Origin: Acetobacteraceae bacterium
GTDB taxonomy: Bacteria; Pseudomonadota; Alphaproteobacteria; Acetobacterales; Acetobacteraceae
Length of the DNA stretch: 40,382 bases
Direction: 5' to 3'
Assembly: GCA_027483995.1 (NCBI GenBank)
Contig: JAIXTK010000344.1
Coordinates: 1-40,382, forward strand
Shown here piece after piece: positions 2 to 682 of this stretch (the stretch's first letter is position 1; each line of letters starts with the position of its first letter). Below the pieces are notes generated by a model. It was not told the origin of the DNA. It saw only the letters and a list, made by a program, of their open reading frames with translations, and ran no database searches. The translations under genes and the position numbers were made by a program.

Positions 2-682
2 GTGCTGCTGCTGCTGCTGCTGCTGCTGCTGCTGCTGCTGCTGCTGCTGCTGCTGCTGCTGCTGCGGCGGCTGCTGGCGGGGTGCGGGCCGAGCGAGGTG
101 GAGCGGCGGGCAGTGGCGGCGCTGCGCGATCCGGGGACGCGGGTGGTGCAGTTTTCCGAGCTAGCCTATGCGCCGCTGGCATTTCCGTCGCGCACGGCCT
201 TCGACATCGACGGGGCGAGCCCGGTGGTGGAGATACCGCTTTGGGCGCGCAGCTATGCGAAGGGGTTTGCGCTACCCGCCTCTGCCGGGGAGATGCGGGT
301 GATCATTTCCAGCACCTACAACGGCGATGGTCTGTTCTTTGCGATGCTGACGGTGCTGGACGCGGAGATGCGCCCGCTGATGACGACGGAGGTCAATGCG
401 GCGCGGCAGTGGGAGCGGTGGAGCGGGGGGCCGATCCAGGTTGAGGTGCCGGTGCTGCTGGCGGGGGCTCTGCGACGGCAGGCGCGGTATGTTGTGGTGC
501 ATACGACCGGCGCCGTGGAGCTTGCAGAGCAAGAGGCTTTCGAGCCGTTTCAGGTGGCGCAGCGGGGGCCGGTGATTTTCTTCGTGCCATCGGTCCCGCC
601 GCGCGAACCGACGGCGCCGAAGCGGCCTCGGCGTGCGGCGATCGGCTCGGTGGTGATCGAGTTGGTGCCGCCGCTTCTTTGA
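2..682 (+). CDS. Lipoprotein with poly-leucine signal peptide and MalM-like domain (5' end uncertain)
   Basis: The frame opens with GTG at the window edge, so the true start may lie upstream. The product shown is 226 residues. Twenty consecutive leucines (residues 2-21) form the hydrophobic core of a signal peptide, followed by Arg-Arg and a lipobox L25-A26-G27-C28, so the mature protein should be lipid-anchored at Cys28. The mid-region resembles the MalM (maltose operon periplasmic protein) fold in pattern: a beta-rich segment with IISST, a following LTVLDAEMRPL strand-turn, then a YVVVHTTG strand near residue 164. MalM proteins have no firmly known function. The C-terminal 40 residues are proline- and arginine-rich. 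The lipoprotein call is strong if the start is right; the MalM relation is a weak resemblance. Confidence 0.7.
   Translation: MLLLLLLLLLLLLLLLLLLLLRRLLAGCGPSEVERRAVAALRDPGTRVVQFSELAYAPLAFPSRTAFDIDGASPVVEIPLWARSYAKGFALPASAGEMRVIISSTYNGDGLFFAMLTVLDAEMRPLMTTEVNAARQWERWSGGPIQVEVPVLLAGALRRQARYVVVHTTGAVELAEQEAFEPFQVAQRGPVIFFVPSVPPREPTAPKRPRRAAIGSVVIELVPPLL
5..64 (+). repeat. (CTG)20 trinucleotide repeat
   Basis: Twenty uninterrupted CTG codons run from here to the CGG CGG pair at 65-70. The array lies inside the reading frame of the first gene and encodes leucines 2-21. Only four bases precede it, so it may continue leftwards outside the window, and the window may begin at an assembly break caused by the repeat. 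Confidence 0.95.

Follow-up and report, generated by a model that had tools for sequence, protein, structure and literature searches.

A (CTG)20 array at a contig edge in an Acetobacteraceae draft genome is probably a faulty or private contig end rather than a tunable signal peptide

Leucine repeats are significantly enriched in eukaryotic signal peptides, and single-residue repeats are typically far fewer in bacteria and archaea, as reported in PMC3124433. According to PMC5125637, CTG makes up 93% of one class of human leucine repeats, and PMC6821194 proposes the hypothesis that highly hydrophobic low-complexity regions, those of leucine included, were removed by selection after becoming unsuitable or toxic. 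The locus described here, on contig C104 of an Acetobacteraceae bacterium, resembles the eukaryotic leucine-repeat signal peptides described in PMC3124433 in having a leucine run at the hydrophobic core, but it differs from them in being bacterial, purely CTG-encoded, 20 copies long and missing from the orthologue. Among the literature matches listed, judged by titles and abstract openings, no description of a CTG-repeat signal peptide in bacteria was found.

The window, i.e. the whole stretch of DNA that was analysed, is the entire contig C104 from its base 1 (40382 bases), and its left edge is therefore a contig end. The source draft consists of 501 contigs and 5.02 Mb, is 89.2% complete and is 5.4% contaminated. 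Read from the sequence, window positions 2 to 85 on the plus strand are GTG (2 to 4), (CTG)20 (5 to 64), CGG CGG (65 to 70) and CTG CTG GCG GGG TGC (71 to 85). They open a frame of 226 amino acids counted from the GTG (positions 2 to 682, plus strand, with the stop codon finishing at 682), which we read as that of a lipoprotein: residues 2 to 21 are leucine, residues 22 and 23 arginine, and residues 25 to 28 form the lipobox Leu-Ala-Gly-Cys (positions 74 to 85). Only four bases, AGTG, lie outside the array at the left end of the contig; the true start and the codons preceding the array are missing from it, the start lying past the contig edge or having been replaced. In these respects the initial annotation, which had read a (CTG)20 run coding for Leu2 to Leu21, then Arg-Arg and the lipobox, was confirmed by re-reading, and its caution about the window edge was right. 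The array is the sole one with at least 8 CTG in the 5.02 Mb draft (a reversed-pattern control gave 0), and an independent-base model with the composition of the window gives an expected (CTG)20 count of about 6e-28.

A MalM-type domain, PF07148 (positions 248 to 511, plus strand), scored 28.9 bits against the Pfam gathering cut-off of 26, while the NCBIfam MalM equivalog model, whose cut-off is 295, gave 23.1 bits. The protein is thus like the MalM family (PF07148, maltose operon periplasmic protein) in its domain score, but it lies far below the equivalog cut-off and its downstream neighbour is an APH-type phosphotransferase, unlike MalM of the maltose operon. Judged from its sequence the gene product is a MalM-domain lipoprotein, an assignment made at domain level with the equivalog cut-off missed. 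That it is a lipoprotein, as first proposed, agrees with the Leu-Ala-Gly-Cys lipobox, whose cysteine lies near the N-terminus and which is invariant in the five homologues aligned, this protein included. In contrast, the Arg-Arg at −5/−6 relative to the cysteine is found in the window protein only (0 of the 4 other aligned homologues). With this pair and the contig edge, the printed C104 sequence does not display the short positive n-region and uncharged core directly before the lipobox that are expected of a lipoprotein signal peptide.

Relatives of the protein were sought in 60 genomes (its own and 59 relatives) at E 0.001 or better, and they were found in its own genome and in G006 only. 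The latter, a MAG from Lake Pavin that belongs to the same genus, carries the orthologue on a contig taken as JAPLOI010000076.1 (C42, 187,566 bases). Positions 2982 to 4699 of the orthologous locus (L017) align with window positions 70 to 1787 at 97.3% identity over 1,718 bases without a gap, and the homology breaks off abruptly at window base 70. Upstream of this point, window positions 1 to 70 show 24/70 ungapped identity with the orthologous locus, which is chance level since a sliding control over L017 gave a mean of 20.8 and a maximum of 39. The contig thus ends in a terminal tail (positions 1 to 70, plus strand) devoid of recognisable homology to the orthologous locus. The orthologue starts with ATG ACG CGG GCG CTG TGG GCG GCA TTG GTG GTT CTG CTG CTG GCG GGG TGC, that is MTRALWAALVVLLLAGC, which by eye looks like a complete, ordinary mixed lipoprotein signal peptide, with the n-region and the core in place. 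Three CTG codons without any long repeat lie in its signal-peptide core, GTT CTG stands where the window has CGGCGG (positions 65 to 70, plus strand; Arg22-Arg23), and its PF07148 score is 29.3 bits.

The repeat is likewise missing from three more MalM-like lipoproteins within the genus. The first is a tandem paralogue in G006, with the N-terminus MRHWLLIGLVFLAGC and a PF07148 score of about 24.7 to 25.5 bits, below the cut-off of 26; the second is a homologue on contig C177 of the same draft as the window, with the N-terminus MRPLLALLLAGLAGC and 21.4 bits, also below the cut-off; the third is a homologue in G003 that reads ALAGVLMLAGC up to the cysteine and scores 29.3 bits, above the cut-off. 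The tandem paralogue (33% identical) lies at L017 positions 2297 to 2950, directly upstream of the orthologue, and is itself preceded by a PIN-domain gene (L017 positions 1815 to 2225). The alignment of orthologues suggested earlier as a check on whether poly-leucine is kept could be run with a single orthologue, 97% identical, whose signal peptide is of the ordinary mixed kind and repeat-free; this is the outcome that the initial annotation had named as refuting its reading. A repeat at the orthologous site with a copy number differing between related strains, as a contingency locus would have, was not found in the one orthologue compared; as no second orthologue turned up among the 59 relatives searched, the comparison of the site rests on one case.

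We then considered the surroundings of the contig end. The draft also has a contig, C189, that matches L017 positions 1 to 717 at 96% identity and ends there, leaving about 2.26 kb (L017 positions 718 to 2981) between C189 and C104. Among the best 40 of 525 first-look candidates scored, no long match to L017 positions 1400 to 2981, where the tandem paralogue and the PIN-domain gene lie, was found in the draft; with L017 positions 1400 to 3020 as the query, C104 positions 70 to 108 and nine short matches were returned, none of them longer than about 95 bases (again for the best 40 of 525 candidates). One of these short matches, on contig C184 (79% over about 62 bases), lies within the coding sequence of a different gene, close to the end of C184, and does not span an array. 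Where C189 ends, L017 positions 682 to 1160 collect 26 of the 32 draft matches reported (best 40 of 486 candidates) and are therefore a multi-copy stretch. Since about 2.26 kb is apparently missing from the draft, a figure to be taken with caution because L017 itself has 19 N at positions 1231 to 1249, the assembly seems to have failed between C189 and C104, and the array is the right-hand side of this assembly gap. The junction of array and lipobox had no match (0) in the viral contigs scanned for it.

To place this end among the others of the draft, 63 of the 501 contigs were sampled, of which 59 remained after removal of 4 that were masked throughout; leaving aside the right end of 9 long contigs, these 59 gave 109 ends. 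A pure array (period 1 to 6, at least 12 bases) was found at none of these other ends (0/109), and the longest pure array inside the same 59 contigs, counted in fixed 100-base windows, was 25 bases. The idea that contigs of this draft commonly end in repeats was thus rejected for the sample. The C104 end is exceptional in its draft, which speaks against a general fault and not against a single bad end. Contig C60 ends in a degenerate C-rich stretch.

Long CTG arrays are rare in relatives as well. Arrays of (CTG)8 or longer occur in 7/195 genomes, own included; within the genus, the 8 genomes other than the own have none (0/8). At (CTG)11 or longer the count is 11/397 family genomes, own included and with one array per fetched stretch, so the earlier remark that so long a pure array is unusual holds; at (CTG)12 or longer it is 4/398 phylum genomes, own included, and none of the three other phylum arrays is signal-peptide-like as judged by reading. 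Three of the 11 family arrays lie 4 to 7 bases from a contig edge, namely the C104 array and those of G209 and G287, which likewise are CTG (12 and 24 copies) and lie 7 and 6 bases from the edge. The G209 array differs from that of C104 in its frame: (CTG)12 at L075 positions 8 to 43 encodes Leu12 in an IPP transferase (MiaA) frame that runs on past the array, the part after it scoring 103.5 bits for PF01715. Because MiaA is a cytosolic tRNA-modifying enzyme, a signal peptide is not expected there, and the two relatives compared have ordinary sequence near that point, with leucines nearby. For the G287 array, the parts matching six of seven other genomes lie about 650 to 840 bases away, in addition to one 28-base match. 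In G370, (CTG)16 (L081 positions 925 to 972, minus strand) is separated by one base from 63 consecutive N (974 to 1036), which are a scaffold gap or masking.

Some other arrays of the family lie inside contigs. G368 and G125 have arrays of 20 and 21 copies that are not in clear signal peptides, and by reading of frames the only clear signal peptide among the 10 other family arrays is that of G266, where 11 CTG (L084 positions 1030 to 1062, minus strand) form the signal-peptide core of a protein whose TctC domain scores 33.6 bits against a cut-off of 27, well inside the contig. Two shorter cases were seen in G123, both well inside contigs: 9 CTG (L085 positions 929 to 955, minus strand) followed by a lipobox and then by DUF2272 (216.4 bits), i.e. 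in a lipoprotein, and 9 CTG (L086 positions 994 to 1020, plus strand) before a CcmH domain (151.7 bits). The notion that poly-CTG signal peptides are absent from the family was rejected on account of these 9- to 11-copy cases. They are like the C104 array in being pure CTG, in the leucine frame and at export-type protein N-termini, but they differ from it in having 9 to 11 copies, in lying well inside contigs and in showing no Arg-Arg before the cleavage site.

Apart from the array, the window holds a near-palindromic element, TTGCTTCTTTTTCTTCAGAAAAAGAAG, at positions 749 to 775 (plus strand) and 7958 to 7984 (minus strand). It has 26 matches with at most 4 mismatches in 573 kb of sampled draft contigs, compared with 0 for each of 20 shuffled motifs. 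A hairpin can be drawn, with a fold no better than that of shuffles (z-score −0.42), and the element is possibly a terminator-like or REP-like family of the genus.

Several explanations of the array were weighed. The array lies 4 bases from the contig end and homology is lost at it, with the break at base 70, as would be seen with an assembly artefact. In the explanation that we prefer, C104 would carry an ordinary MalM-domain lipoprotein gene cut by the contig edge, whose normal signal peptide was most likely close to the MTRALWAALVVLLLAGC of the orthologue; the first 70 bases, array included, would most likely be a faulty contig end, formed when a repeat-bearing or chimeric read was joined at the CTG-rich core stretch (three CTG in the orthologue), after which the draft stops. 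We give a little better than an even chance to a faulty end accounting for these 70 bases, the falsity of the tail and the way it was joined being what we infer. This explanation draws on the 4-base edge, the homology break, the ordinary orthologue and the gap of about 2.26 kb, and also on the edge arrays elsewhere (3/11 and G370), the MiaA case and the absence of Arg-Arg from the other homologues. Against it, such a join needs reads having the array, CGGCGG and the lipobox together, as a real array would give, and the absence of a pure array from the 109 other sampled ends means that repeats are not the usual way for contigs of this draft to end. The 20- and 21-copy arrays inside G368 and G125 contigs and the 9- to 11-copy signal peptides before intact domains also count against it, as does the fact that the array is in frame and sits at the CTG CTG CTG of the orthologue, a natural slippage seed. 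Moreover, the outer bases AGTG agree at three of four positions with GGTG of the orthologue (its GTG codon plus the preceding base), provided that the GTT after this codon became CTG.

These last points argue instead for an array that is real in the strain, i.e. a private slippage expansion of the three core CTG codons that is neutral or mildly harmful and also broke the assembly. Real repeats break assemblies too, and edge position alone therefore cannot separate the two; arrays of this length do exist within contigs of the family, and poly-CTG signal peptides do occur there. Yet slippage alone would preserve the flanks of the orthologue, whereas the 12 codons before the final LLAG are unrecognisable in the window and CGGCGG adjoins the lipobox; in addition, the longest clear signal-peptide array observed inside a contig has 11 copies and the other genomes of the genus have no (CTG)8. 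A private expansion is thus quite possible, somewhat short of an even chance, and a faulty end is slightly likelier. The proposal of the initial annotation, that CTG copy number differs between cells and tunes lipoprotein export or lipidation without switching the gene off, appears very improbable. The three-base unit would keep the frame open, and slippage in triplet repeats is well known generally, but the orthologue and the three further MalM-like lipoproteins of the genus lack the repeat, and a 20-leucine core followed by Arg-Arg beside the lipobox would be a poor substrate as a lipoprotein signal peptide. The comparisons with the orthologue, the homologues and the family arrays gave no evidence of copy number tuning export, and the companion claim that the array is the natural signal-peptide core of the lipoprotein found no support either, since homology stops at window base 70 and the other four homologues lack Arg-Arg. 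Long leucine cores act as membrane anchors. We also consider it highly unlikely that the gene encodes a real lipoprotein with an expanded, length-variable poly-leucine signal peptide of at least 20 CTG, which would turn a cleavable signal into an intermediate of export signal and membrane anchor.

Altogether, a faulty or private end sequence accounts for the C104 array more plausibly than a tunable secretion device does, and long triplet arrays at contig edges call for comparison with an orthologue before any function is assigned to them. Should the C104 array be real, no poly-CTG signal peptide met in this survey would be longer, and it would be a candidate for a graded variation of bacterial protein export that leaves the frame intact. 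The 9- to 11-copy poly-CTG signal peptides found before intact domains inside contigs of the family are a modest but sounder result.
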